Assembly: GCA_030867875.1 (NCBI GenBank)
Contig: JAOWCC010001634.1
Location: forward strand, 133,815,022-133,879,021
Direction: 5' to 3'
DNA: 64,000 nucleotides
DNA from: Actinernus sp. WN-2022
Lineage: Eukaryota; Cnidaria; Anthozoa; Actiniaria; Actinernidae
Positions within the stretch are counted from its first letter, which is position 1; each line of letters starts with the position of its first letter. Of the stretch, positions 5,601 through 37,561 are shown piece by piece. The notes under the pieces are model-generated. The model was given only the letters and a program-made list of their open reading frames with translations. It was not told the origin of the DNA and did no database searches. The position numbers and the translations under genes were made by a program.

Positions 5601-8600
5601 GTAATAAAAATAATACTATATTATTGGTGTTGTAGTTTAACACTTATTATTGAATTGCCTCTTGGTTATTATGCACTTGTCTAGTCAATATTAGAAACCC
5701 CCACACCCCCATTCCCAGGACATGCTGGGGGATTTGATACATATCCTGAGCAAATGACACAAAAAACCCCAACTCCTGGGGAAAATGTTTAGATCAAATT
5801 CCCCGAAGTGCAGACCTAATTATTATTATAATGAGGGAAAAGTTGATCCACCAGAAGGCTCTGGTTTCAAATACAAATTACCAAGGGCTTAAACTTTTTT
5901 AGTAAATAATTTGATAACTTAGTAAACTCACAGTCAATTACAAATCAAGAAAACTTCAATCTGTTAAAGTCTTAAAGTGCAACTAACCCCTTTTGCAATT
6001 TATATATATATGAATCTTTGAAAGGTATTGAGTACTTCTGCGAAGAAATTTTTGGCTTACAGAGAATACTCTATGTTCTAGGCTTGTTTGAAATGGTGAA
6101 AACTTGACCTTTCCTGACCCATGACCGCGTAAGAAAAAGCCTGGGTCGATTCTTGATCTTACGTCATCCAACTCATTCGACTTTGCAGTAATTTGAATAA
6201 ATATTTAGCATTTTGTCTAAAATAACTGTTTTCTTTACTAACAACTCACGGACTGTGTGTATTCTCTATATCGATCTTGTTGTGATAGAAAGGCGCCATG
6301 GGGAATAATGCATTAATGAGGTGACGTAAGATCAAGAATCGACCCAGGCTTTTTCTTGCGCGGTCATGGGTCAGGAAAGGTCAAATTTTCACCATTTCAA
6401 ACAAGCCTAGAGCATAGAGTATTCTCTGTAAGCCAAAAATGTATTCGCAGAAGTACTCAAAACCTTTCAAAGATTCATATGTATAAAAATTGCAAAAGGG
6501 GTTAGTTGCACTTTAAGCTTATCTTTTAAGTAGTTTTTGTTTTTGCGAAACATTTCACGTAAATACGCGTACATACTAAGAACTAGAAACAGGGGTGACT
6601 GCCTCTGTTTTCTTTTAATTTCGGCGGGAAACTAGGGAGAGATACGTGCGCGATCGGCTCATCAAAAGCGCATGCGCATGACGTTTTGCCGCTGTGTGGT
6701 CCTCGATATTTGTTGAATACGCGCATGCGCACTATGGCGGCAGGTCGGACGAGGGGTCCAAGATCTCACAACTTATTCACCCAACATTGTTGAAGCGATG
6801 TTGACATGCATGTTTTCAACATCCTTCAACATGATGCAGCAAATGTTGAACTGCGCAGTAAGAAATTAGTGGGGTCTGGGTACGAGATTGGTTTGACCCA
6901 GGTTTTACATCGTGTTGGCCAATGTTGAACAACAATGTTCAAATGTTAATTTAGTCCCGCGGCTTAATGGTACAGCTCTGCAACAGTTAAAGTGCACCTA
7001 AACCATCGCAATTGTTTTACCTACATGTATGAACCCCCGAAAAGTATTGAGTAATTATCTGAAGAAAGTTTTGGCTTACAGAATATGCTCTGTTCTACGC
7101 TTGTTTGAAATAGTGGAAAAATTACCTTTCCTGACCAATGACCGCAAAAGTAAAAGGTAAAGTCGATTCGTGGATAGACGTCATCTCATTAATTCGACTT
7201 TGCAATAATTTGAAGAAATACATAACATTTTGACTAAAAGGACCTTTTTCTTTACTAACAACTCACAGACTGTGTATATTCTCTATAAATCGATGTTGTT
7301 GTGATAGAAATGCGCTGGAAAATAATGCATTAATGAGATGACATCTACTCAGGAATCGATCCAGGCTTTCACTTACATGGTCATGGGTCAGGAAAGGTAA
7401 ATTTTTCCCTATTTCAAACAAGCGTAGAACATAGAGTATTCTCTGTATTAACCAAATGTTTTTCAGAGAAGTACTCAGAATGATTTGGACATCTGTAAGT
7501 ATAAAAGTTGTAAGAGGGTTTAGGTGCACTCGAAGCTCTCCTCAGTTTTCTTTACAGTGTTCACTAATCACTGCATCATATTTCTCTGTTTGGCAGATGC
7601 AGACATCATACCTCATTCAAGCTCAGTACATGAATCTGGACTATGGTTTTCAATTCCCTGCTGCCTCCCTTTCTATTTTTGATATTATCAGTGTGCTTCT
7701 GCTTATTCCCATCATGGACAAGACGGTCTATCCATTCCTACGTTACTGCGGATTCCGGTTTACTCCACTGCGACGTATCGGTACTGGCATGTTGTTTGCT
7801 GCAGCATCTGTTGCCGTTGCAGGACTTGTGGAGATAGAGAGGAAGAATACGTTGGAAAATGGAGGATGGCATGACCAAGACCTGTTTAACAAAAGTGTCA
7901 ATGCTTCAAACACCAGCGTATTTTATCAAGTGCCTCAGTTCTTACTGATTGGAACAAGCGAGGTGTTCACAAGTATTACAGGTAGAGTAAAAGTACTAAC
8001 TTCTTACTAACTACAGTGTCATATACTGTAAAGAAACCCATATCAAACAACGAGTGTCGATTTAGTGGCCTGGGACCTAGAAACCGCCATTTTGAATTTC
8101 CTGTCAGCTCTTCCAAATATGGAATATGGAATTTTCCTAATATGGAAGAGACCGCGGGAAGTTCAAAACAACACTTTTGCCTGCTATTTTATTGATATGG
8201 TTAAAAAAGAATACACCTCTAAAAGAAAAAACACACAGCAGCTTTGTCATCCTTGGTAGTCTGTGGAAACAACCGTCTCCATTCGAGGGCCAAAAGCGTA
8301 ACCAGTGTGTAGCCATTTAACAGCCACCAATCGAACATTGACTCCATACATGCGCATCACCATGTCGTAGCACCTTCAATTCAGAAATATTAAGACTATT
8401 TATAATAGGCCTTTTACAGGAAACAGTAACGTGCTGATATATCACTTGACTTCAATAACCAGTGAATAGCCCACTTCCGCGATATGCTTTACTTGTCACG
8501 ACAAAGGTTTCAATACGAGGCCCCGTGCTAAATTAAATTTATTCTTTTCACAGAGAAAATAATAAATTTAATTTAGCACGGAGGCTCGTATTGAAACCTT

Positions 8601-11870: not shown

Positions 11871-12147
11871 TTTGTTAAAAGTGTTTAGTTGTTATTTTGT
11901 AACCTACTATTGTCCATTTTCAATTGGTATCTCGGCTACAAAATCATGGGTAACGTGAACCTTACGATTGCACTCATTTTACAGTGCGACTACTGAAACC
12001 GGGAGCACTCAAACAACGAGCACTAAACACATTGCAAAACAAAAAGAAATAATTCCAAAGTATAAATCCTAGTATATCCATGCGATTTTCTTCTTTCGAA
12101 ATACTTTGACTTGTCGACCAAATTAGCCTTTTATCGGATCGAAGCTC

Positions 12148-13175
12148 GTAAGTTGGAATGCTGTTGTCTTGTACTCGACACTGATTGGCTCGAGTAACCG
12201 TAAGTTGGAATGCTATTGTCTTGTACTCGACACTGATTGGCTCGAGTAACCGTAAGTTGGAATGCTATTGTCTTGTACTCGACACTGATTGGCTCGAGTA
12301 ACCGTAAGTTGGAATGCTATTGTCTTGTACTCGACACTGATTGGCTCGAGTAACCGTAAGTTGAAATGCTATTGTCTTGTACTCGACACTGATTGACTCA
12401 AGTAACCGTAAGTTGAAATGCTATTGTCTTGTACTCGACACTGATTGGCTCGAGTAACCGTAAGTTGGAATGCTATTGTCTTGTACTCGACACTGATTGG
12501 CTCGAGTAACCGTAAGTTGGAATGCTATTGTCTTGTACTCGACACTGATTGGCTCAAGTAACGGTAAGTTGGAATGCTATTGTCTTGTACTCGACACTGA
12601 TTGGCTCGAGTAACCGTAAGTTGGAATGCTATTGTCTTGTACTCGACACTGATTGGCTCGAGTAACCGTAAGTTGAAATGCTATTGTCTTGTACTCGACA
12701 CTGATTGACTCAAGTAACCGTAAGTTGAAATGCTATTGTCTTGTACTCGACACTGATTGGCTCGAGTAACCGTAAGTTGGAATGCTATTGTCTTGTACTC
12801 GACACTGATTGGCTCGAGTAACCGTAAGTTGGAATGCTATTGTCTTGTACTCGACACTGATTGGCTCAAGTAACGGTAAGTTGGAATGCTATTGTCTTGT
12901 ACTCGACACTGATTGGCTCGAGTAACCGTAAGTTGGAATGCTATTGTCTTGTACTCGACACTGATTGGCTCGAGTAACCGTAAGTTGGAATGCTATTGTC
13001 TTGTACTCGACACTGATTGGCTCAAGTAACCGTAAGTTGGACTGCTATTGTCTTGTACTCGACACTGATTGGTTCGAGTAACCGTAAGTTGGAATGCTAT
13101 TGTCTTGTACTCGACACTGATTGGCTCAAGTAACCGTAAGTTGGAATGCTATTGTCTTGTACTCGACACTGATTG
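12148..13175. repeat. 52-bp satellite array with 6-unit (312-bp) higher-order repeat
   Basis: About 20 head-to-tail copies of a 52-bp unit (gtaagttggaatgctattg, tcttgtactcgacactg, attggctcgagtaacc). Variant units recur exactly 312 bp apart: gttgaaatg at 12,356 and 12,668, and ggctcaagtaacgg at 12,551 and 12,863. The array therefore grew by amplifying a 6-unit block. Each unit carries an inverted CCAAT box (ATTGG) and a CTCGAG or CTCAAG site. The array ends abruptly at 13,175. Confidence 0.95.
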
Positions 13176-13700
13176 GAATGCTTTGTTTTCGTTCTGCTGT
13201 CTGATTGGTTGCCGATTACAGTAGTCGCACAGTAACAGCCATGGAAAATGCAAGATCCACCGATCTTGCATTTTAAACTTAGTACTGAGTGACCAAACAA
13301 ACTATCATAAGTATTTGTGTGGTACGTACAAACTATCACAAACTATTGCTTTAAGATGTATGTTTAAGATTTTCAATGTATAGTAATGTGTGACAGAATC
13401 TAGCTTGCAATATTTTTGTAGCCGTAATTATTAAGTTTAACTCAGTTTTTTACAGTTATATATGCGGATCTTCATGTACATACGAAGTTTCATAAAATAA
13501 TACAGATAATTGTAGGTCAGTAAACGCTCAAAGCGTTTAGTCGACTCGAATAGTTTAGGTACATTTGATTTTGTTACAAATTGTATGTAATGATTCTTTC
13601 AGACCAACGGTAACGAGTCCGAAAACCAAAAACAATGAGTCTGTGAACAAGAATCAAATCAAACTTTGTCAGAATTTTAGCACTATACGAGCAGAGACTT

Positions 13701-20865: not shown

Positions 20866-21487
20866 AACATAATTTTTTTATAATAATAACAAATTCAATA
20901 TTGTATTAGCGAAAATATGAGTAATATATAGCAATAAATAAAACAAGTACATACGAAAAAAGGCAAAAAAAATATTACATTGAAATTATAAATAACAGTA
21001 TATATGTATATATGGTTATCCAAGGTCCCGGAGCAGCGATTTTTTTTAACAGGGGTCTAGTGTTTTTAAGCAGGGAAAAGACTGTTATTTAACAAGGGAA
21101 ATGTTAAATGCCCCGCTAAATGTCGCGGGGGTACGTCGGGAGTGGTTTCAATTGACTGGTGCACACGCGTTGTTAAGGAGTAGTGAAACTCACCTTTTCA
21201 ACTTTCTGTAAAACAAAACTACAAAAATCACACCCTGAGATCGAAGAGAAATACCATGTGAATGTATCTTTGCCGGCATCCTTCATCAAAATTGTCTCAA
21301 AGTGTCTCCGGTATATTTGTCAAGCATACTCTGAGTAGTTATTTTTGTATTTCGTCATGGGAAAGTTTATCATTTGGGGATTGACAGTGCCCATTTACAT
21401 CGTATACTGCGTAGTTTTTTTTAAGCATCTCTGGTTTCCTTTCATCGAAGCGCAAGTTTTTCATCCACGGTCCAAGTCACGCGAGAG
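20866..21487. other. AT-rich LINE upstream region and left flank of the polintovirus
   Basis: Positions 20,866-21,010 are very AT-rich and probably continue the decayed LINE upstream. Positions 21,020-21,487 are ordinary intergenic sequence with no recognised gene. The last five bases, GAGAG (21,483-21,487 region), are the left copy of the presumed target duplication. Confidence 0.45.
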
Positions 21488-21785
21488 AGTAGTATAGCCG
21501 GAGTCAGATAAATACCACTTTTTCTTGTACAAGAAAACTCAAAAAGTTGAATGTTATGGACGCCTTGTTTTCTTGCACAAGGGGCGTCATAAAGCGAATT
21601 CAGAAATCCACTTCATGACGCCCCTTGTGCAAGAAAAAAGGCGTCCATACCATTACAACTTTTTAAGTTTTTCTTGCACAACAAAAAGTTGTATTTATCT
21701 GACTCCGGCTATACTACTAGGGGTAACTAAGGGTCATTCAAAGTGTCACTAGACATTCTTGTACATAAAATCCAACTTGATAATC
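21488..21785. repeat. Left terminal inverted repeat, outer 231 bp palindromic
   Basis: The sequence matches the inverse of 37,034-37,331 nearly base for base. Its outer part, 21,488-21,718, is itself a near-perfect palindrome: AGTAGTATAGCCGGAGTCAG at one end and CTGACTCCGGCTATACTACT at the other, with the centre near 21,603. The non-palindromic remainder (ctaggggtaactaagggtc to about 21,785) is shared with the right repeat. The 75-codon frame inside is a by-product of the repeat and not a gene. Confidence 0.92.
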
Positions 21786-21905
21786 CTATTAGAGATATGA
21801 TTACATATAGTTATATCGACATCGATCGCTCTGCAACAGCCTTACACCTAGAAATCTAAATTTGGAGTATCTGTTAAAGCTATCCTAATATATAGTTGTA
21901 TCGAA
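21776..21905 (+). promoter_or_regulatory. Two copies of an inward-facing promoter-like module upstream of the polymerase
   Basis: A module of about 50 bp (TTGAGTATCTGTTARAG, then ATGATTATTATA-like, then TATATCGA) occurs at about 21,776-21,828 (diverged) and at 21,862-21,905 (gagtatctgttaaagc, taatatatagttg, tatcga). The second copy ends 7 bp before the polymerase ATG at 21,912. The same module precedes the two minus-strand genes at the other end of the element. It is a plausible early promoter; no TATA spacing has been tested. Confidence 0.5.
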
Positions 21906-24900: not shown

Positions 24901-25502
24901 CATATGAACTCGAGAGCCGAAAGGACCAGATCCGAATCAAACGCCCTTTCCAAGTAGGTATCGCTGTGTACCAGCTTGCAAAGCTGCGTATGCTCGAGTT
25001 CTACTACGACTTCCTCGATAAGTACATCGATCGCAAAGATTTCGAATATATACAGATGGACACGGACAGTGCGTACATTGCCATCTCTGGAAACAGCATA
25101 GATGAAGTTGTACGACCGGAACTACGTGAGGATTTCGAAGCCAATAGGAAGGAATGGCTAGCTTGGGACAAGTGGAGCAGTCGTACCCCAGGACTCTTCA
25201 AACTCGAATTCGAAGGACAGCGCGCCATTGCCCTATGCTCGAAAGCCTACTACGTCGATACGGGTGGCAGCAAGAAGTATTCCGCTAAAGGTATGTCTAG
25301 GCGTCACAACGACATTTCGTGGGATCGATTCAAAGCAGCCCTCCAGGGTGATATCGACATGGCGGAAAACCGAGGCTTCCGACTATCGCCAGAAGGTATA
25401 GCAACCTACAAACAACGGAAGCTTGGGCTATCGGCTTACTACGACAAAAGACGTGTTCTTCCCGATGGAATCCACACCGAGCCAATAGAGTACGCTGTCT
25501 AG
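21912..25502 (+). CDS. Protein-primed family B DNA polymerase (polintovirus pPolB)
   Basis: A 1,196-residue polymerase that would copy the linear element genome, using a terminal protein rather than RNA as primer. The 3'-5' exonuclease motifs are present: YDFEAYLD (about 441), GFNSGRYDLNLI (about 547) and YYNNLDVVPFLE (about 679). The polymerase motifs are A (GYDANALYL, about 780), B (LLGNSAYGKLL, about 950) and C (MDTDSAYI, about 1,049), all with their acidic residues. The long N-terminus has a GDNLCLWRCLAMH block (about 170), a C2H2 zinc finger (CNDC...HADRC, about 275-298) and FHGCYFHGCPKCF (about 380), all familiar from Maverick polymerases. The terminal-protein role of this N-terminal part is inferred. 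The start is the first ATG after the promoter-like module. Its stop overlaps the convergent integrase stop through a shared CTAG. Confidence 0.97.
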   Translation: MVRPRSEPLPRSLAREAGAILEERDGMLEGVEIGRRTIRWRFFQGVAGDLTPRIMEKLVAKVTTSFYLRYSYTYRIRNVNDGRVMLFSKTVPGSPWVNILEDGEEWINSMETARLNPDNINRPNTQWAFVRWIYVDVKVVIDRQLLLGTGPLPQWLRYKRGILALDRYGDNLCLWRCLAMHEGARVDRCCVKARKLAQDFYRLTALTQDVPRTSLDQLEEVELHFGIGIRVYEPTEDGAWHLMRHAAHYKRTMTIGIYEGHAFYIKNIDKIGSVYVCNDCKQRFTKASNLQRHADRCSRGETKIVCPGKVITVPQSAYEKAFWPESTASKVALCWLERETKRIGQHIHHAACGHGGEHWIEGAPVDGYEPISKTLFQFHGCYFHGCPKCFPRERRLYLKTYERTAKLQGAGYTVVEAWGCSTKKKNKPVPTPTQTVYPHFIVYDFEAYLDTTKGRQPTDHLTIENVHVPISVSIADTYNRKPTHICRRNPKELIEAFVEELQQRAETIQEVVVEQFCPKTPEFSFDTLPKKQQAKIDEWISQVPVVGFNSGRYDLNLIREHFVGIIADTCSKILVAKKANSTMFLLTPDFRFLDVINYLGPGTSYERWVAAYGCESQKSFFPYEWFDSPDKLDHVGLPDYQEWGSKLKREHLLSMSEFEDCKRTFLDKGMETFADWLRYYNNLDVVPFLEALEKMRDFYHEKGVDMLKDAVSIPGVSLQFLLRGSVERGAEMYAPSKEAYRMLKDAVVGGPSIVFTRLHESGVTKIRSHQGGTKICRKILGYDANALYLSTMEFEMPCGKEKVVHYDDPGPATEGFVECLLGGTWFGYAEVDIEIPKTLWKEFEEMPPFFYNKKIPKEAIPPEMLAYLEKTGRKLSEETKLVGSLSGKKLLLYAPLLLWYVDHGAVITAVYRTIDYEPKEIFGWFVDQVTEARRMGDEDKGEALLADVFKLLGNSAYGKLLEDLGRQTKVTYTKDEKVVDKALRSVWFEDLEEIGDAYELESRKDQIRIKRPFQVGIAVYQLAKLRMLEFYYDFLDKYIDRKDFEYIQMDTDSAYIAISGNSIDEVVRPELREDFEANRKEWLAWDKWSSRTPGLFKLEFEGQRAIALCSKAYYVDTGGSKKYSAKGMSRRHNDISWDRFKAALQGDIDMAENRGFRLSPEGIATYKQRKLGLSAYYDKRRVLPDGIHTEPIEYAV

Positions 25503-26530
25503 CGCTTGGGTACAAACAGAATTCCTTTTGGTGGTAGTTCTGTATCCCTAGGAACAACTTGTAGCTCTTCACGAACGAATCCACGTTTGGGTGCAGCCTT
25601 CTCCTTCGCAAGGTAGTAAAGCACAGGCTGTCCCGAAGATACTACGCTTCGCGAAATGGTGTATATCTGTAAACTCCACACGGGATCAGTAGCTCTACGT
25701 TTTTCACCTCCTTCCAATTCTCCTGGTGCGTAAAGATATCGAACTAGAACGTCGAATGGTAGACGCTCTTCTCTCAATCCAACGGTGCGCGAATACGTAG
25801 GAGTCTTCAGATCTACTTGTTGCGCCACCACAGAATTCGAAGGCTCTTTACCAGTCAACCGAGTCACCTCACTGTTCATGGCTTTGATAACCATTGGTAA
25901 ACGAAGTACCCATTCTCTACTACGCTCATCTGATCCTTCCGAAGTAAGTACCATCTCTTGTGCATACTGATACCCAAACAATCTCTCGGCTAGAGTTCTA
26001 TTTGCTCGTTCGACGAAGCCTTGCGCTCTATGATTACCAGCCTCACCTCGTTGAACTTTCGTACCATGTAGTTCTAGCGTTTCAGACATACGTCCCATGA
26101 ATTCTCTACCAGGATCTACTTGCAACGTCTTTGGCCATTCTAGTGGACTACGTTTATAGATTCGTTCGAATGCCGCAGAAACTTCACCACTATCTTTAGA
26201 TGCCAAAGGTTCGGCTTCTTTGTATCGAGAAGCTACGTCGATTACTACCAATGCGTACTTGTATAGTTTCCTTCCACGTCCAGGACGATCGTGTGGTAGA
26301 AATATCAAATCAGCTTGGTGGACTTCATTTGGTTTCGATACAGTCCAATGTGGTCGTGGAATGTGTTTTGGTGGTGGTAGATATATTTGCCATATAGATT
26401 GCTTTTCCAACCAACTCCTAGCTACGTCTTCTGATGCTTTCGCTGCTACCGATAGCTTACCAATTGCAGAGTGACCTTTCCAATAGCCCATAGGACCATA
26501 GAAGATATTCGCAAGTTTAGAATCCATCAT
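25499..26530 (-). CDS. Retroviral-type DDE integrase (polintovirus IN)
   Basis: A 343-residue rve-family integrase that would join element ends to host DNA. The catalytic triad is visible as D74 (HQADLIFL), D139 (QVDPGREF) and E174 (QGFVERANR), so the last two are 35 apart, the classical D,D-35-E spacing. The C-terminal part (DPVWSLQIYTI, QPVLYYLA, GFVREELQVV) is the chromodomain-like or SH3-like tail seen in Polinton integrases. Two in-frame ATGs open it (26,530 and 26,527). The longer frame up to 26,611 would translate a poly-T hairpin into a run of Phe and Leu, so that start is unlikely. A TTGAAGG...TATA sequence lies just upstream. It is convergent with the polymerase gene, stops overlapping by 3 nt. 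Confidence 0.95.
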   Translation of the reverse strand: MMDSKLANIFYGPMGYWKGHSAIGKLSVAAKASEDVARSWLEKQSIWQIYLPPPKHIPRPHWTVSKPNEVHQADLIFLPHDRPGRGRKLYKYALVVIDVASRYKEAEPLASKDSGEVSAAFERIYKRSPLEWPKTLQVDPGREFMGRMSETLELHGTKVQRGEAGNHRAQGFVERANRTLAERLFGYQYAQEMVLTSEGSDERSREWVLRLPMVIKAMNSEVTRLTGKEPSNSVVAQQVDLKTPTYSRTVGLREERLPFDVLVRYLYAPGELEGGEKRRATDPVWSLQIYTISRSVVSSGQPVLYYLAKEKAAPKRGFVREELQVVPRDTELPPKGILFVPKR

Positions 26531-26552
26531 ACATCTATACGTCCCAACCTTC

Positions 26553-26636
26553 AACAGATAAAAAAAAAAAAAAAGGAAGAATAAAGAAAGTCGTTGCGTG
26601 ACCCTCTTCATTCTTCCTTTCTTTTTTTTTTTTTTT
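26553..26636. promoter_or_regulatory. A-tract/T-tract hairpin with conserved core (copy 1)
   Basis: A14 followed by GGAAGAATAAAGAAA is mirrored by TTCATTCTTCCTTTC and a T-tract, forming a hairpin. Between the arms lies GTCGTTGCGTGACCCTCTTC on the plus strand. The same core lies in opposite orientation in the second hairpin at 35,594-35,672. Both sit just upstream of minus-strand genes (integrase and TFIIB-like). A terminator, promoter-linked element or replication/packaging signal are all possible. Confidence 0.7.
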
Positions 26637-27070
26637 AGTAGTAACCTAGTAGTAACCTAGTAGTAACCTAGTAGTAACCTAGTAGTAGCTTAGTAGTAGC
26701 TTAGTAGTAGCTAGTAGTAGCTTAGGGGTAGCTTAGTAGTAGCTAGTAGTAGCTTAGGGGTATCTTAGTAGTAGCTTAGTAGTAGCTTAGGGGTAGCTAG
26801 TAGTAGCTTAGGGGTAGTTTAGGGGTAGCTTAGTAGTAGCTTAGGGGTAGCTTAGGGGTAGCTTAGTAGTAGCTTAGGGGTAGCTTAGGGGTAGCTTAGT
26901 AGTAGCTTAGGGGTAGCTTAGGGGTAGCTTAGGGGTAGCTTAGTAGTAGCTTAGGGGTAGCTTAGGGGTAGCTTAGTAGTAGCTTAGGGGTAGCTTAGGG
27001 GTAGCTTAGTAGTAGCTTAGGGGTAGCTTAGGGGTAGCTTAGTAGTAGCTTAGTAGTAGCTTAGTAGTAG
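26637..27070. repeat. 11-bp G-rich minisatellite inside the polintovirus
   Basis: About 39 tandem 11-bp units: five TAGTAGTAACC units first, then mixtures of TTAGTAGTAGC and TTAGGGGTAGC. The G4 runs come every 11 or 22 bp on the plus strand, so quadruplex formation is possible. It fills the gap between the integrase leader and the stop of the next minus-strand gene. No protein is encoded. Confidence 0.93.
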
Positions 27071-28114: not shown

Positions 28115-28607
28115 CTTGATTCGATATAGTAGGTATATGTGGAGGTTCAACAGTTGTTCCAGGAATGACTACGTGACCAGATATGTGGAATAGGACGCTA
28201 GCTAGAGCTACAAGGCGACCTGCTTTGAGTGATAGTAGGCCAGTCGCAGCACTGATTTCATTGCGGACTAGAGGGTCTTCTTGTAGGTCCTTGATCAGTG
28301 CTTCTTGAGAATCTATTGGTACTAGGTAGGCAACTAGGCGGGTAGCTAGACGTGTCACGCCGTCGACTAAGCCTTTCGTTACTTGCTGAGCTAGGACGGC
28401 CTGATACCTCCTATACAACTTGTCTATTTCTTTCTCAGGAAGTCTAGAGATGTCTCCTAGGGAAAAGTTCTTACCTAAGTATTCTTTCGTTACGCCTGTT
28501 GCGGCTAATATCGAAAGTGATTCGCGATTGTCTGATGTGACGTCTAGGGCGGTTGGTGGTGGGCCTGTTACGTCCTCGCCGAATATCTCGAGTATATCTT
28601 TATCCAT
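28059..28607 (-). CDS. Unrecognised 182-residue polintovirus protein
   Basis: It opens MDKDILEIFGEDV, has a Leu/charged helical middle (LPEKEIDKLYRRYQAV, ATRLVAYLVPIDSQ), a hydrophobic stretch near 125-150 (LKAGRLVALASVLFHISGHV) and a polar Asn/Ser/Asp-rich tail. It lies directly after the ATPase gene, overlapping it by 8 nt, so it is likely co-expressed with the packaging and capsid genes. There is no Cys protease triad and no jelly-roll signature that I can see. A structural role is a guess from position. Confidence 0.7.
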   Translation of the reverse strand: MDKDILEIFGEDVTGPPPTALDVTSDNRESLSILAATGVTKEYLGKNFSLGDISRLPEKEIDKLYRRYQAVLAQQVTKGLVDGVTRLATRLVAYLVPIDSQEALIKDLQEDPLVRNEISAATGLLSLKAGRLVALASVLFHISGHVVIPGTTVEPPHIPTISNQDGRTDGSDNCESSNDCTN

Positions 28608-29223
28608 GATAATATGTTGTAGGTGCTGGGAGCTCTAACACCACCTCGAAAGGATGGCGGAGACAGAAGCACATGCGAGCGAACTTATGGGATCCAAGTA
28701 TCGTTCGTAACTCTTTACATTCTTGTGAGCCTCCATAATCCTCAAATATCTTTTTACCATCTACGACCGATGCTGTATGAAATGCTACTACGATAGCTAC
28801 GTTCTCGCGGAAGGGTTTACATATGCTCGTTAGTTGTTGGGACAGCACCCAAATGGAAAGCCCTATGTGTCGTGCAGAAAAGGCTAAGTCCACTAGCTTT
28901 TCAGTTCGTTTCTTGACGTCCTTCGATGCGGCGCAATCATCGAGAATCAATAGAGTATTGGTACCTGACCAAAATGTTGCACAAATACTCAAAGTAGCAT
29001 CGATGGCATCTTGTGGTGGCGATATGACGAAGAAATGAGGATCTCGATTTGCGAATCCACGATAAGTTTTGTTGTGGGCATACGTAGGACAAATCAGTAC
29101 TATGTAATCGAACTTACCACGAAATGCTCCACGAAGTTGTTCTATGAGAAACGCAGTCTTCCCACAATTCGTCGGACCGACTATGAGTGCGTTGAACGGC
29201 ACGTGCTCTACGAGAGAATCCAT
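28600..29223 (-). CDS. Genome-packaging ATPase, A32/FtsK-HerA type
   Basis: A 207-residue P-loop ATPase that would pump DNA into the capsid. Walker A is GPTNCGKT (residues 16-23) and Walker B is TLLILDDCA (about 90-98). A WVLSQQLTSI strand follows, with a Gln pair where the sensor motif of A32-like ATPases lies. Length and motif spacing fit the short packaging ATPases of polintons, virophages and large DNA viruses. It begins with an ATG that overlaps the capsid gene stop (TGATG), so it is coupled to capsid expression. Confidence 0.92.
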   Translation of the reverse strand: MDSLVEHVPFNALIVGPTNCGKTAFLIEQLRGAFRGKFDYIVLICPTYAHNKTYRGFANRDPHFFVISPPQDAIDATLSICATFWSGTNTLLILDDCAASKDVKKRTEKLVDLAFSARHIGLSIWVLSQQLTSICKPFRENVAIVVAFHTASVVDGKKIFEDYGGSQECKELRTILGSHKFARMCFCLRHPFEVVLELPAPTTYYHG

Positions 29224-30492: not shown

Positions 30493-31590
30493 ATGGCCTC
30501 TGAGGGTAGGTACGATGAAGGAACTGATGAAGCTGAAGGAGGTGGAGACTACGATAAAGATGATACTATCAATGTGGATGAGGAGTGGGATGCAATATTT
30601 CCAGAAGAGTCAGGAGAAATGGTCCCAATGAAAACCAGACGCAACTACGGCAAAGAAGGTGCTAGACCAAAGAATCAGGAAACCTCGTTTTCTAGAGAAG
30701 ATGACGAGTACTTCGACGAACTCATCGACTCGGAAGGCTCGAACGTTTCTAGAAATGAAAAAATCCTGGAGAGGCTGGAGAAAGAGAAAATCCCAAAGTA
30801 TACCGATCGAAGTGTAATCTTCAAACAGGGTTTATCGGAAAATGCAAGACAGGATATGTTCGAGACTGTCTGGGAAAAATACCACGATGTGGGAATTCGA
30901 GGCACGCTTGAGATTGCAACCATGTCTGATGGTAGAGTCTTTATCAAAGAGTATGGAAGTAAAGAAAAAGCTATTCCTTTGACCACCACGAAAGGTGAGT
31001 TATATAAGAAGATGGGAAAAGGTCTCAAAAGAGTCTTAGGACCTTCGAGGGAAGAAATGTTAAAAGAAGTCATAGTAGCTCAAAACCAATTGAGTGAGAG
31101 GGTCGAACAAAATGAAGGAATACTCAAAGACCCTACATCTACCGAAACTCAGAAAGAAAACGCTACTAATGAAATAAAGACCGATCAGGAGGAGCAAACA
31201 GTCCTAGAACAAATAGAAGGAGCTATAGTAGCACGGATGTCACTTAGGGATCGTATAAGAATCATCTTTAAGAAGTATGGAGTCAGTATAATTAGCGTGG
31301 TAGCTGTGGTAAGTACTGTGATCGGTGTAATAGTTTCCAATCTGACGAAGACAGTTTCCGCGATAGTACCAGGATTTGGAGATGCTGCCAAAGCAGCTGC
31401 TAAAACAACTGTCAAAGGTTTAAGAGCAATAGGCAAAAAGTTAGAGGAGATTCTACCTAAGATGATTGGACCAATTGTGAGTTTCATATTCAGTATGGCT
31501 GCTGACGTTGTTGGAGTCTTAGCAAACAACCTTTGGTTGTTAATCGTAGCAGCAGTGGTCTTCGTAGTGGAGCAATACAAACGCCGTTAA
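30493..31590 (+). CDS. C-terminally membrane-anchored protein of polintovirus type
   Basis: A 365-residue protein if started at MASEGRYDEG; the frame is open upstream to 30,433 but that overlaps the divergent capsid gene. The first half is acidic and charged (EGGGDYDKDDTINVDEE). The C-terminal 110 residues hold hydrophobic segments (VSIISVVAVVSTVIGVIVS; IVSFIFSMAADVVGVLA; WLLIVAAVVFVVEQYKRR) around an amphipathic helix (GLRAIGKKLEEILPKMIG). I recall this tail from other cnidarian elements; function unknown. An amphipathic, membrane-active virion role is possible. Its stop overlaps the convergent stop of the 544-residue gene (TTAA). Confidence 0.8.
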   Translation: MASEGRYDEGTDEAEGGGDYDKDDTINVDEEWDAIFPEESGEMVPMKTRRNYGKEGARPKNQETSFSREDDEYFDELIDSEGSNVSRNEKILERLEKEKIPKYTDRSVIFKQGLSENARQDMFETVWEKYHDVGIRGTLEIATMSDGRVFIKEYGSKEKAIPLTTTKGELYKKMGKGLKRVLGPSREEMLKEVIVAQNQLSERVEQNEGILKDPTSTETQKENATNEIKTDQEEQTVLEQIEGAIVARMSLRDRIRIIFKKYGVSIISVVAVVSTVIGVIVSNLTKTVSAIVPGFGDAAKAAAKTTVKGLRAIGKKLEEILPKMIGPIVSFIFSMAADVVGVLANNLWLLIVAAVVFVVEQYKRR

Positions 31591-33221
31591 CGAAACAACG
31601 TCCATGCGATTCCAGCTGCAGCAATGGATGTCACTGCGAGATTAATCTCATGTTGTGAGACGACAGCCTTTACCTTTGCCTTTGCCTTTGCCTTTGCCTT
31701 TGGTACAGGAACTTGTTTCTCGAGAGGCTGTACCGATTTCTTATCTGACGGTCCTTCCATAAGAAGAGGTGGGTGTCCTTTGACTTCTATATTGATGGCG
31801 TTAGTGCCTAGCACCATATCTTTCGTAGCTTTCGGGATTGGATTCTTATAGTCATCTTTCTTACCAAGATAGTACTCTAGATTGCTTGGCAAAAGTCGCA
31901 CATCTACAGCTATTGCTAAATCGAGCCTCTTATGCGTCCTCGTTATAGCATTAAGATAGTTATTGTAGCTCACCACTAAATCGTTTTCGAGAATAGCATC
32001 TTCGACTAAGCTCTTAAACTTTTCTTTGACGTTATGGCTATGTATGATGGAGTCGTTCAGATCTGCTTGTGCACCAAGTATGCAATGTCCAAAAGCCTCG
32101 ACAGATCTATTCAACCTACCCAATCCAACATCTGTCAAACCCTTTCCGATTGGTGGCATGAACCAATTGTATTGTTTACCGTTGTTATTGCCAATGTACG
32201 TTAAAGAAAACTGGTACGGAGTACGACTCTCCTCAGGAAACTTAAAGTCACCACCAGGCCACTTTGCAGAGAACGAAGTATTATGTGCATACTTCTCCGT
32301 ATAGTTCACCATTTTTCCATGAGAGTTTACGTAGACGTCTCCTAAGCCATTCCACCGAAAGTCTGGTGTTCGAGATATACCGAATTCGATGCACAATTTC
32401 TCAAGAGCTGATTTGTTATAGAGGTTATCCCTTTGCTTGAAATGAGATTCACCAGGTAAAGGAACTCCATGAGTACCACCAAGTTCACGTAGAATTCTTC
32501 GTATCGTGAAATATACGTGGAATCGTAGGAACCCTTGAACGACTGGTGGATACGTTTTGAAAGTGGGGTCAAACAACGACACTCCACATCCGGAAGTTGC
32601 ACACCACGTTGCGAAATTCAATTGTTGAGGCCAGTAGTGGAAATCCGGACCAGCCAACCAATGCTGGGACTCTTTTTTTGTCGTATGCTTTACAACGATC
32701 TCCTTGAATATATTTGGAACGCCAGCTTTGAAATTCTGCTTTGGTGTGACATATATCAATAGATTAGTGAGATCAATATCTTGTGCCGGTTCAGTAGAAG
32801 GAACTGCTGTAATGGGATATTTCACACTCATGTCTAGTATCAACGTAGATGGGAAACCACCAACCATTCCCTGCAATGCATTGTCGATGCGGCTTTGAGT
32901 GACTGCAGATAACTTTGAGACATCATCGCCGTAAACGATATAGCTAGAATCTCCATCTCGAAACCAAATACTCGTCGAATATTTGCCTGGATCGTTCACT
33001 TCCGTAGAGGCATAGAACTTGTGAAGATCTGCCTGTGGATATTTCTTCTTGAACTTCGCTAATAGATTTGCATTCAACGTTGTGACCTTTTCATTTTCAT
33101 CGGCAAGGAGTGCTGTCTGCTCAGATTTCGAAAGCCTTGGTCCACCCTTGGCAATCTCTACCTTGTCCTTGGCAGATAGACCATCGTACCAATCGTCTTT
33201 GTCTGGTACAACGAGAGGCAT
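31587..33221 (-). CDS. Large conserved structural protein of unknown function (polintovirus)
   Basis: A 544-residue protein starting MPLVVPDKDDW. A conserved-looking centre (WPQQLNFATWCATSGCGVS, FLRFHVYFTIRRILRELGG, YNWFMPPIGKGLTDVGLGR, SVEAFGHCILGAQ) resembles proteins I remember from Hydra and coral elements. Near the C-terminus is an Ala-Lys repeat (KAKAKAKAKVKA), then a hydrophobic tail (LAVTSIAAAGIAWTLFR) fit for a membrane anchor. No enzyme motif is evident. Its size and one-gene distance from the capsid gene suggest a virion protein, possibly vertex or spike related. It is divergent from the 222-residue gene across a palindromic promoter. Confidence 0.8.
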   Translation of the reverse strand: MPLVVPDKDDWYDGLSAKDKVEIAKGGPRLSKSEQTALLADENEKVTTLNANLLAKFKKKYPQADLHKFYASTEVNDPGKYSTSIWFRDGDSSYIVYGDDVSKLSAVTQSRIDNALQGMVGGFPSTLILDMSVKYPITAVPSTEPAQDIDLTNLLIYVTPKQNFKAGVPNIFKEIVVKHTTKKESQHWLAGPDFHYWPQQLNFATWCATSGCGVSLFDPTFKTYPPVVQGFLRFHVYFTIRRILRELGGTHGVPLPGESHFKQRDNLYNKSALEKLCIEFGISRTPDFRWNGLGDVYVNSHGKMVNYTEKYAHNTSFSAKWPGGDFKFPEESRTPYQFSLTYIGNNNGKQYNWFMPPIGKGLTDVGLGRLNRSVEAFGHCILGAQADLNDSIIHSHNVKEKFKSLVEDAILENDLVVSYNNYLNAITRTHKRLDLAIAVDVRLLPSNLEYYLGKKDDYKNPIPKATKDMVLGTNAINIEVKGHPPLLMEGPSDKKSVQPLEKQVPVPKAKAKAKAKVKAVVSQHEINLAVTSIAAAGIAWTLFR

Positions 33222-34620: not shown

Positions 34621-35559
34621 CTAAGTCCTACTGCTAGTTAGCCCATGCCTAGTGTAGATTGGTTCGAAGTGGGAATGGTAAGAAGACAACTTCTTGACAA
34701 AACGCTTGACTGAATTTCCAAATACGTCACATCGCCCAATGACTTCGTTAAGAGACATAGACGAGCCTAAACGACGTAGCACCTCGTAACTTGCTCCAAC
34801 AACTTTCGTCTTAATTACCGATCTGCCTACATTGTTTTCTATTGCCATAGTAACAACCTCGTGGACTATTTGTTGAGCGTCTATAAGTACTCCTTGAGGA
34901 TCGAGCTGTAGGAAAGTCGTTGCAATGTGAGGAACTATGCACTCGGCATCCAAGTCTACATCGATCTCATTGTCGTCACACAGAGAACGTATAAAGACCT
35001 CTCCTCTATGGATGCCTTTGTTGCTTAGTTGCATGAAGCGAGCAACCTCACCTTTAGATCGGATGAATCCACATTGTATGCATGCATGGTAGAGTAGAGC
35101 AGCTAGAATATGTCTCTTAGCATCGCTACGCTTGGGATGAACTTTCATTACTTGGATAAATGCGTCGGCTACGATTCCTAAAGTGTTTGTAGGGAACGAC
35201 AGGTCACAACTTTGTTTGTAAATAGCGTTGTATGCTCGTAGTTCTTGTAGGAGCATTCGTCGTTGCAGTTCCGTGTCATCACTTTGCTTTGGTTTTGCGT
35301 GGTCTAGATCACTTTGATACTGAGATCCGTCCGGACCTACTATACGCAGTCGAGTAGTAATAATATCGATCTTAGTTTCTTCACATGGTTCAACCTCGGA
35401 AACAAGACCACAGGTGGGACATACGAATTCCGTTCCTTGTATTTCAAAAGGGCAGAGACAATCAGGACATGTTTCACTGGTGTTAATATGTTCCACTTGT
35501 GGTTTGATATTCAGGCTTCTACAAATTCCAGGACCAAACAATCTGACTAGCTCGTCCAT
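34621..35559 (-). CDS. TFIIB-like transcription factor encoded by the polintovirus
   Basis: A 312-residue protein begun at MDELVRLFG; the longer frame to 35,637 would translate an A/T-tract. A zinc ribbon has Cys at 31, 34, 47 and 50 (CPDC...CPTCGLV). The following region reads like TFIIB cyclin repeats: LSFPTNTLGIVADAFIQVMK, then AKRHILAALLYHACIQCGF and KGEVARFMQLSNKGIHRGE; a second repeat follows (about 205-300). TFIIB bridges RNA polymerase II and TATA-bound TBP, so this gene could direct transcription to the element's own promoters. A poxvirus VLTF3-like factor was considered, but the cyclin pattern fits TFIIB better. It converges with the 203-residue gene, 51 nt apart. Confidence 0.8.
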   Translation of the reverse strand: MDELVRLFGPGICRSLNIKPQVEHINTSETCPDCLCPFEIQGTEFVCPTCGLVSEVEPCEETKIDIITTRLRIVGPDGSQYQSDLDHAKPKQSDDTELQRRMLLQELRAYNAIYKQSCDLSFPTNTLGIVADAFIQVMKVHPKRSDAKRHILAALLYHACIQCGFIRSKGEVARFMQLSNKGIHRGEVFIRSLCDDNEIDVDLDAECIVPHIATTFLQLDPQGVLIDAQQIVHEVVTMAIENNVGRSVIKTKVVGASYEVLRRLGSSMSLNEVIGRCDVFGNSVKRFVKKLSSYHSHFEPIYTRHGLTSSRT

Positions 35560-35593
35560 GATACAACTATAGATGTTTATATGTTTAAATAGA

Positions 35594-35672
35594 AAAAAAA
35601 AAAAAAGAAAAAAAAGGGAATGAAGAGGGTCACGCAACGACCTTCTTCATTCCTTTTTTTTTTTTTTTTTTT
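35594..35672. promoter_or_regulatory. A-tract/T-tract hairpin with conserved core (copy 2)
   Basis: An A-tract and GGGAATGAAG pair with CTTCATTCC and a T-tract of about 18. Between them is AGGGTCACGCAACGAC, the reverse of the core at 26,591. In the element's frame the two hairpins are inverted relative to each other, 9 kb apart. This one lies between the zinc-protein stop and the TFIIB-like start. Confidence 0.7.
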
Positions 35673-36300: not shown

Positions 36301-36987
36301 CTATCTGGCATTATAGGCATTCACATAGTAATCTAGTAGGGCATTTTCTTCCTCTATGGTGAGAGGGGAGTTCTTAATGATCCACTTAACGAGCCATTTA
36401 GCGGTATGAAACTGATCGTTGCTACAGGCGCATAGTAGAGCACGATGAATGTATTCACACTCTATGGTTATCTGAAAACGTTGAATGAGCCACTTGATGC
36501 TATTAAGATGCCCATACGCGCCGGCCTCTATCATAGCAAACATGACGGCATAGCCCTCTTTGGTGAACTGGAAGTGCTTAATGAGCCACTTAGCAATACC
36601 AAGGTGACCGTACCTTAAGGCAGCGCATAGAGTATGATTGGTGTATCTATCCATTTTATTGAAACGTAAGTGCTTGACGAGCCACTTAACAATATTAAGG
36701 TTGCCATGATCGCTGGCGTAGATGAGAGGAAGGCTGTCGTCGACGTGGCTTGCGGAAATGCCGAAAGTCCTAGCCAATTTGTCTCTATCGGCATCATTAT
36801 GAGTAGAACCCAAACCGAAACATAGTACTTGTATACGGAACTCTCGGTCTACGTCTTTGTAGCGCGCGAGAGATGCAGCACCGTTTAGGCGTTTTGATGT
36901 CCTTGCAATGCTTGAGAATGACGTAGGACCTGCATGCTCTACGATCTTAGTCAAGATTTCTAGAGGGAGGTACGATATATTATCCAT
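36301..36987 (-). CDS. F-box plus ankyrin-repeat protein (polintovirus)
   Basis: A 228-residue protein. The N-terminus is F-box-like: LPLEILTKIVEHAG (7-20), then SSIARTSKRLNGAA. Four ankyrin-like repeats of about 33-35 residues follow, each with a shared helix: GNLNIVKWLVKH, GHLGIAKWLIKH, GHLNSIKWLIQR and QFHTAKWLVKW. F-box plus ankyrin architectures in poxviruses and giant viruses recruit cellular SCF ubiquitin ligases to host proteins, but the targets here are unknown. It is the outermost right-hand gene, in the typical place for host-interaction genes. It has a promoter-like module just upstream. Confidence 0.85.
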   Translation of the reverse strand: MDNISYLPLEILTKIVEHAGPTSFSSIARTSKRLNGAASLARYKDVDREFRIQVLCFGLGSTHNDADRDKLARTFGISASHVDDSLPLIYASDHGNLNIVKWLVKHLRFNKMDRYTNHTLCAALRYGHLGIAKWLIKHFQFTKEGYAVMFAMIEAGAYGHLNSIKWLIQRFQITIECEYIHRALLCACSNDQFHTAKWLVKWIIKNSPLTIEEENALLDYYVNAYNAR

Positions 36988-37052: not shown

Positions 37053-37331
37053 ATGTACAAGAATGTCTAGTGACACTTTGAATGACCCTTAGTTACCCCT
37101 AGTAGTATAGCCGGAGTCAGATAAATACAACTTTTTGTTGTGCAAGAAAAACTTAAAAAGTTGTAATGGTATGGACGCCTTTTTTCTTGCACAAGGGGCG
37201 TCATGAAGTGGATTTCTGAATTCGCTTTATGACGCCCCTTGTGCAAGAAAACAAGGCGTCCATAACATTCAACTTTTTGAGTTTTCTTGTACAAGAAAAA
37301 GTGGTATTTATCTGACTCCGGCTATACTACT
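37034..37331. repeat. Right terminal inverted repeat, outer 231 bp palindromic
   Basis: It is the inverse of 21,488-21,785, almost without differences. Positions 37,101-37,331 form the palindrome. The flanking GAGAG(T) at 37,332 is the right copy of the target duplication. Confidence 0.92.
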
Positions 37332-37561
37332 GAGAGTGCTCCGCCGAAAGCGTTTTCGATTTAAAAATATTTTCGATGACAACGAACACTCCTTTTCATC
37401 GTCAGTAACTGTGGACGGCCAGGAAAAACTATTTTGATAAGAAAACGCACATAATGGATTCACGTGATTACTCCCCGAGTCTCATCATATGAGACGTGAT
37501 TTTTTTCACCATACTCCAACTGCGCATGTTAGTGACGTAACGTTAGCGCCGAATAGTCCTA

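Follow-up and report, generated by a model that had tools for sequence, protein, structure and literature searches.

The window, by which we mean the whole 64,000-nucleotide stretch of DNA analysed here, contains a 15.8-kb polinton whose outermost ends are two palindromes (Table 1). The element has the polinton gene set, with a DNA polymerase of family B, an integrase of the rve type and an ATPase resembling A32, and it begins and ends with AGTAGT...ACTACT in inverted repeats of 279 identical bp, so that the carrier of the palindromes is an otherwise recognisable member of a polinton clade. Over residues 500-1150 of the polymerase, relatives among the best 120 of 2000 matches stand mostly at 64-67%, and the matches listed include three named polymerases of Oculina patagonica (65-67% over the same residues). 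One match, P0001, is filed under the metagenome-assembled genome of a bacterial symbiont (Thiodiazotropha ex Monitilora) and is probably host contamination.

Table 1. Features of the polinton and its ends, in window coordinates
Feature	Position	Strand	Basis or detail
Left target-site duplication GAGAG	21483..21487		read from sequence
Left terminal palindrome	21488..21718		outer arm 21488-21600, loop 21601-21604, inner arm 21605-21718
Outermost 28 bp, pairing perfectly with the other arm and starting with the (AGT)2 end motif	21488..21515	+	motif as in vertebrate Mavericks (PMC8097293)
Inner part of terminal inverted repeat (AGGGGTAACTAAGGG...), same at both ends	21719..21766	+	comparison of ends
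Diverged inner inverted repeat, ~57 bp with indels	21767..21823	+	comparison of ends
Polinton-type family B DNA polymerase, 1196 aa	21912..25502	+	Pfam DNA_pol_B_2 (PF03175) 2.3e-11
Retrovirus-like integrase	25499..26611	-	Pfam rve (PF00665) 6.1e-10
A32-like ATPase (packaging type)	28600..29223	-	Pfam Pox_A32 (PF04665) 2.2e-11
Inner part of right inverted repeat	37053..37100	-	comparison of ends
Right terminal palindrome	37101..37331		inner arm 37101-37214, loop 37215-37218, outer arm 37219-37331
Right target-site duplication GAGAG	37332..37336		read from sequence

The Pfam search covered 13 of the 18 open reading frames (ORFs) of at least 120 aa in the element; it recognised no nickase or resolvase among them, and several of these ORFs match nothing. 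A 544-aa ORF at 31587-33221, considered with regard to the jelly-roll capsid proteins of polintons, is without a Pfam match. The ORF at 34621-35637 (minus strand) has weak TFIIB-repeat and zinc-binding matches, under the curated cut-offs, and the ORF at 36301-36987 (minus strand), beside the right end, has ankyrin repeats and an F-box-like match that is under its cut-off. Adjoining the integrase gene, at positions 26635-27070, an 11-bp unit, TTAGTAGTAGC, which resembles the AGTAGT tip, is present in about 40 copies. Elsewhere the window carries a tandem array of a 52-bp unit (12147-13176, about 20 copies, 97%) and other strong fold-backs, among them a fold-back repeat at 5971-6517 with 196-nt arms that are 96% complementary.

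Re-reading of the window confirmed the coordinates and end sequences that the earlier note had given for the two 231-bp palindromes, and pairwise comparison shows them to be exact reverse complements (231 of 231 bases). Each can be folded as a single hairpin. The description of them as near-perfect holds for the outermost 28 bp of the arms, which pair perfectly in both palindromes, and is slightly generous for the whole, in which the arms are 88.9% self-complementary with small indels; these make the arm register slip, hence the 49 mismatches among 115 pairs when the arms are compared without gaps. The palindrome has a predicted DNA folding energy of -96.2 kcal/mol; 200 shuffled sequences average -20.1 (standard deviation 3.3), and none of them was as low. 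Inward of the palindrome the inverted repeat continues for 48 identical bp before the diverged stretch begins. A 12-bp tip, searched for with one mismatch allowed, is confined in the window to the four arm ends. Each palindrome abuts, on its outer side, a copy of the target duplication GAGAG, implying that the palindrome is the integrated end itself and not something nearby.

The same end recurs throughout the host genome. The 21-bp junction between palindrome and element body has 207 exact copies in 1.39 Gb, 104 forward and 103 reverse, whereas the same pattern written backwards, as a control, has none. Of the 100 junction places that were listed, 94 fall into 47 pairs of one forward and one reverse copy, most of them about 15-16 kb apart, with one pair spaced 26 kb and another 48 kb. 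We read 106 family ends in full, admitting to this table, of the ends retrieved, only those that match both the 21-bp junction and the 12-bp tip exactly, leaving aside the two ends of the window itself (L016, L067, L072-L078, L080, L082 and L095 are absent from it); they measure 82-235 bp and comprise 63 distinct sequences. All 40 end pairs examined, in three sets of 13, 10 and 17, have a target duplication that abuts the palindromes, the pair L094/L095 having been lost to this test when L095 fell out of the table. The duplication is 5 bp in 39 pairs and 6 bp in one, within the range of 5-6 bp given for polinton-like viruses (PMC12220804). Because L057/L058, L100/L101 and L102/L103 share flanks, and so represent one insertion multiplied by segmental duplication, the 40 pairs amount to 38 independent ones. 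At C398:38.26-38.43 Mb seven junction pairs stand in a row, and the three elements read there have equal flanks, so that one insertion has been carried along by segmental duplication.

The palindromes at the two ends of an element can differ in length, as in L065/L066, L106/L107, L108/L109, L114/L115 and L120/L121, which implies that one end is not in every case a copy of its partner. In the element bounded by L080 and L013 (C685:2375167-2390900) one end has the full palindrome and the other only 32 bp of it. As for the host, the COX1 of the assembly matches the sea-anemone records of Galatheanthemum and Exaiptasia at 97%, Zoanthus at 94%, the anemone-like Relicanthus at only 89% and stony corals at 86-91%, and we therefore take the animal to be a hexacoral resembling sea anemones, for which the label coral is probably wrong; contig C144 (35.7 kb) has two full and one partial COX1 match, and the mitochondrial genome thus looks to have been assembled about twice in tandem. 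Copies of the element had no confirmed match in phage records, viral contigs or prokaryote genomes, collections not meant for animal polintons, so that this negative result carries little weight.

Palindromic ends are also present in related polintons. With a polymerase 50% identical to that of the window as query, 35 loci were scored out of 6499 first-look candidates; at 20 of 20 loci sampled from these, the 5 kb read upstream contained a left end with a palindrome of 126-186 bp, the alignment of which begins at the tip motif or at most 13 bases outside it. The 20 loci represent one clade, in which the starts of the polymerases (59-128 residues) are 85-99% identical to that of the window, and several of them have distinct palindrome cores. 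The claim of the earlier note that the terminus is itself palindromic is borne out, and related elements share the feature, as seen both in the family junctions and in the left ends of other subfamilies. Two further subfamilies (L077/L078 and L076) have palindromes of 286-295 bp. Right ends beyond the window family are represented by the junction pairs of one subfamily group, the 20 loci having been read at their left ends: its inner junction occurs 65 times in the genome, and 60 of these form 30 inverted pairs, most 15-18 kb apart.

Some copies keep the terminal 20 bp and have no palindrome. There are three such loci, L072/L073 (with a 5-bp duplication, AGTTC), L074 and L075, and they imply that the palindrome is not indispensable for integration. 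In the inner parts of L072/L073 and L075 the polymerase matches are broken into several pieces, so that their genes look broken. The first of these loci belongs to a 10.7-kb polinton derivative (C635:142725863-142736549, with L072, L073, L088 and L089) whose two ends repeat each other in inverted orientation across several kb at 97.5-98%; both ends contain pieces of the apparently broken polymerase gene, and the whole resembles the product of a snap-back deletion.

The arms of these palindromes evolve together. For a covariation analysis we aligned 24 palindromes (21 distinct, 126-147 bp) over their outer 31 pairs, 24 being the number kept from 29 prepared rows after omission of L149, L157, L105, L120 and L124. 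Standard pairs fill 95.8% of the cells, against 88.8% after shuffling; 9 of the 31 pairs have changed on both sides (5.6 shuffled), in 46 cells (15.6 shuffled), and the covariation score is 0.196 (0.069 shuffled). The observed pairing and covariation values were reached by 0-1 of 500 shuffles, and structures slid out of register gave only 0-2 pairs changed on both sides and scores of 0.004-0.031, a comparison that favours the unslid structure in that it was picked from the same sequences, which are moreover related. Further pair types did not exceed the shuffles (174 of 500).

A wider comparison of 128 palindromes, drawn up without L143 and L157 on account of their imperfect inner ends, gives 28 distinct types of outer and inner tip. 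Position 8 is T/T, G/G or A/A and position 11 is C/C, G/G or T/T in the two arms, never mixed; mixed pairs do occur at positions 14-28. Variable positions match between the arms in 78.2% of cases, compared with 60.9% (maximum 68.9%) in 2000 shuffles. Six to nine mismatches over 28 bp are seen in 21 of the 128, mostly where the inner arm carries one inserted base, with a few in which other tips have been joined. Among the 106 family ends, 96 have arms that are identical across the outer 28 bp. In 51 distinct full-length forms the mismatch between arms is 0.1% and 1.0% over positions 1-28, 7-19% at 29-84, 0.8% at 85-98 and 24% at 99-112. The idea that only the tip is copied is weakened by the identical block at 85-98, and this second block means that selection on paired binding blocks may explain the likeness of the arms in part or entirely.

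Several individual copies have departed from the usual form. In L026 a block of the inner arm has been altered to match the outer arm, and in a 133-bp form both arms are shortened around the same loop. One orientation is common to 85 of 87 full-length ends; the two that score better when inverted are L132, in which the centre alone is inverted, and L114, which is inverted save near the tip. In a genome-wide count, 45 places carry the usual-orientation form of one tip type. At L016 the host flank is followed by the palindrome, by an exact inverted copy of 85 bp of that flank, and then by the body of the element, which resumes at base 11. This order would result if the DNA broke next to the palindrome, the 3' end folded back, the host flank was copied and the pieces were rejoined, and L016 looks as if it were a product of hairpin-primed synthesis, in a single copy known from the assembly. 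The places C685:111033062 and 111049443, considered as a flipped pair, were rejected as such and represent the L016 host-flank case.

What keeps the two arms alike? Selection without copying would suffice if the integrase, or a protein that binds the terminus, needs two opposed sites, so that the arms coevolve as a dyad and their folding is incidental. There are two near-identical arm blocks rather than one (1-28 and 85-98), and within the palindrome motifs of the type CTTGYRCAA recur at 48-52 bp, as this explanation would have it. What looks like copying, however, are the tip types that differ by the same change in each arm, the replaced block of L026, the central inversion of L132 and L114 and the joint shortening of the arms, and we think it unlikely that selection has acted alone. 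The alternative offered in the earlier note, that a fold-back element was captured, would here mean a palindromic mini-polinton (MITE) with the same ends, taken up at both ends of a polinton to become its new terminus. A solitary palindrome does exist: L067, of 233 bp, lies between two copies of its own 5-bp duplication, TTCAA, and at position 29 has one arm of the outer type and one of the inner type. In one subfamily group (L138, L140, L146, L153 and others), furthermore, the DNA immediately inward of the palindrome begins again near position 15 of the arm, making a third partial copy of the arm, as if an older end had gained a palindrome in front of it. Such solitary copies are nevertheless rare, with L067 alone against about 42 attached palindromes among 100 of 112 sites listed in a survey confined to the exact terminal 20-mer; within this survey a common independent MITE is unsupported. 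Palindromic ends are also direct repeats, and a full copy could therefore be reduced to a solitary one if its ends recombined, so that L067 may be either an integrated mini-element or the remnant of such recombination. Different cores at the same place in several subfamilies weaken the idea of capture further, and we rate it as rather improbable; it may be true as an origin, and would leave the joint evolution of the arms unexplained. Selection on paired blocks and capture of a mini-element may also act together.

The earlier note had read the palindromic end as a possible sign of replication through hairpin ends or of integration from a head-to-head junction, a departure from linear ends capped by a terminal protein. 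A junction of the latter kind would centre on ACTACT|AGTAGT; here the end motifs lie outside and the loop is central, and we reject it on that ground. Rolling-hairpin replication of the parvovirus type, with joined hairpin ends and regular flip/flop, would be in keeping with the foldable ends, the inverted variants L114 and L132 and the hairpin-primed appearance of L016. Inversion at each round predicts mixed orientations, however, whereas the ends are nearly uniform, with two of 87 inverted in whole or part. Regular flip/flop is thus rejected, and the strong form of the hairpin proposal is not supported, a polymerase of the protein-priming type and its end motif being retained and no nickase having been recognised by Pfam in the ORFs searched. 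We regard rolling-hairpin replication as very improbable, while noting that full flips could be selected against, since the arms differ at position 29: the outer arm has C there in 86 of 87 ends, and the inner arm has A in 80 of 87. A departure from protein-capped ends need not follow: the tips retain the (AGT)2 motif, which has been linked to protein priming, so that palindrome and protein cap are not mutually exclusive. Palindromes are error-prone in assembly, and the assembly is the sole source of these sequences; the many insertions that lie in different flanks, between short duplications that match, nevertheless make an artefact of assembly or sequencing scarcely credible.

Several known systems can be compared with these ends. 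Vertebrate Mavericks (Polintons) are alike in their protein-primed polymerase, rve integrase, ATPase, inverted repeats and similar size, and in ends of the form 5'-(AGT)2//(ACT)2-3' (PMC8097293). AGTAGT/ACTACT is their commonest end motif and has been read as allowing jumping-back in protein-primed replication (PMC8097293). Their target duplication is 6 bp, however, as against 5 bp in nearly all pairs here, and that text is without the words palindrom, hairpin or fold-back (PMC8097293). A polinton-like insert near the salmon gh1 gene is likewise described with a palindrome (PMC2584663), but one that occupies 10 kb of a 20-kb insert and is not a short terminal fold-back, which brings it nearer to the inverted-duplication element of L072/L073. 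The telomeres of linear Streptomyces chromosomes are alike in their palindromes and their terminal-protein cap, which for the present element is putative, and there the first 13 nt can fold onto an inner palindrome, after which the 3' end is extended (PMC4513846). These telomeres differ in being bacterial, in having several short palindromes and in an internal start of replication, and we claim no kinship of sequence or genes; they do imply that a terminal protein and a folded-back 3' end can coexist (PMC4513846). Poxvirus hairpin telomeres likewise have an incompletely paired terminal fold-back, but are closed and occur in flip and flop forms (PMC8956199), whereas here one orientation prevails. 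Bidnaviruses share the polinton-type polymerase and inverted terminal repeats, but their repeats are stated not to form hairpins of the parvovirus type (PMC4061559), whereas the ends described here are foldable.

The ends of parvoviruses such as AAV have a palindrome inside the terminal inverted repeat, can be self-priming, and show regular flip/flop with the involvement of a nickase. The present ends share with AAV the palindrome in the terminal inverted repeat; regular flip/flop was not found, nor was a nickase recognised by Pfam among the 13 ORFs searched. We know of no experimental work on how polintons complete or protect their ends. In listings, abstracts and passages of open-access papers, to which the search was confined, no description of short palindromic polinton termini was found.

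We conclude that the palindrome is a real, recurrent and coevolving end structure on recognisable polintons. It is the genuine end of the polinton, being flush with the target duplication, present genome-wide on the family, found with other cores in related subfamilies and changing in both arms together, and we judge it, on balance, probable that the fold-back inner arm serves as a spare terminus, copying through a hairpin keeping the arms alike. Replication would start by protein priming at the outer AGTAGT. The displaced strand would then fold back its 3' end, the outer arm pairing with the inner arm, and an end sequence that is damaged or missing could be recopied from this spare copy; the same pairing would also keep the arms alike. 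Occasionally the folded end might be extended further, partly inverted or shortened, giving rise to odd copies. We infer the protein cap, the hairpin and the copying alike from sequence comparison, and our best reading of the matched arms is that hairpin-templated copying, selection, or both maintain them.

Finally, a bolder form of this reading, which we put forward tentatively and consider possible rather than probable, is that these are hybrid telomeres: every end would carry a fold-back spare terminus that is recopied via a transient hairpin, and a lone palindrome would be a sufficient unit for integration. If true, this would link protein priming of the adenovirus type to self-priming of the parvovirus type. 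The coevolving arms amount to a testable prediction on end replication and hint at an overlooked way in which linear mobile DNA keeps its ends intact, one that would bear on how protein-primed elements could become self-priming, hairpin-ended viruses.
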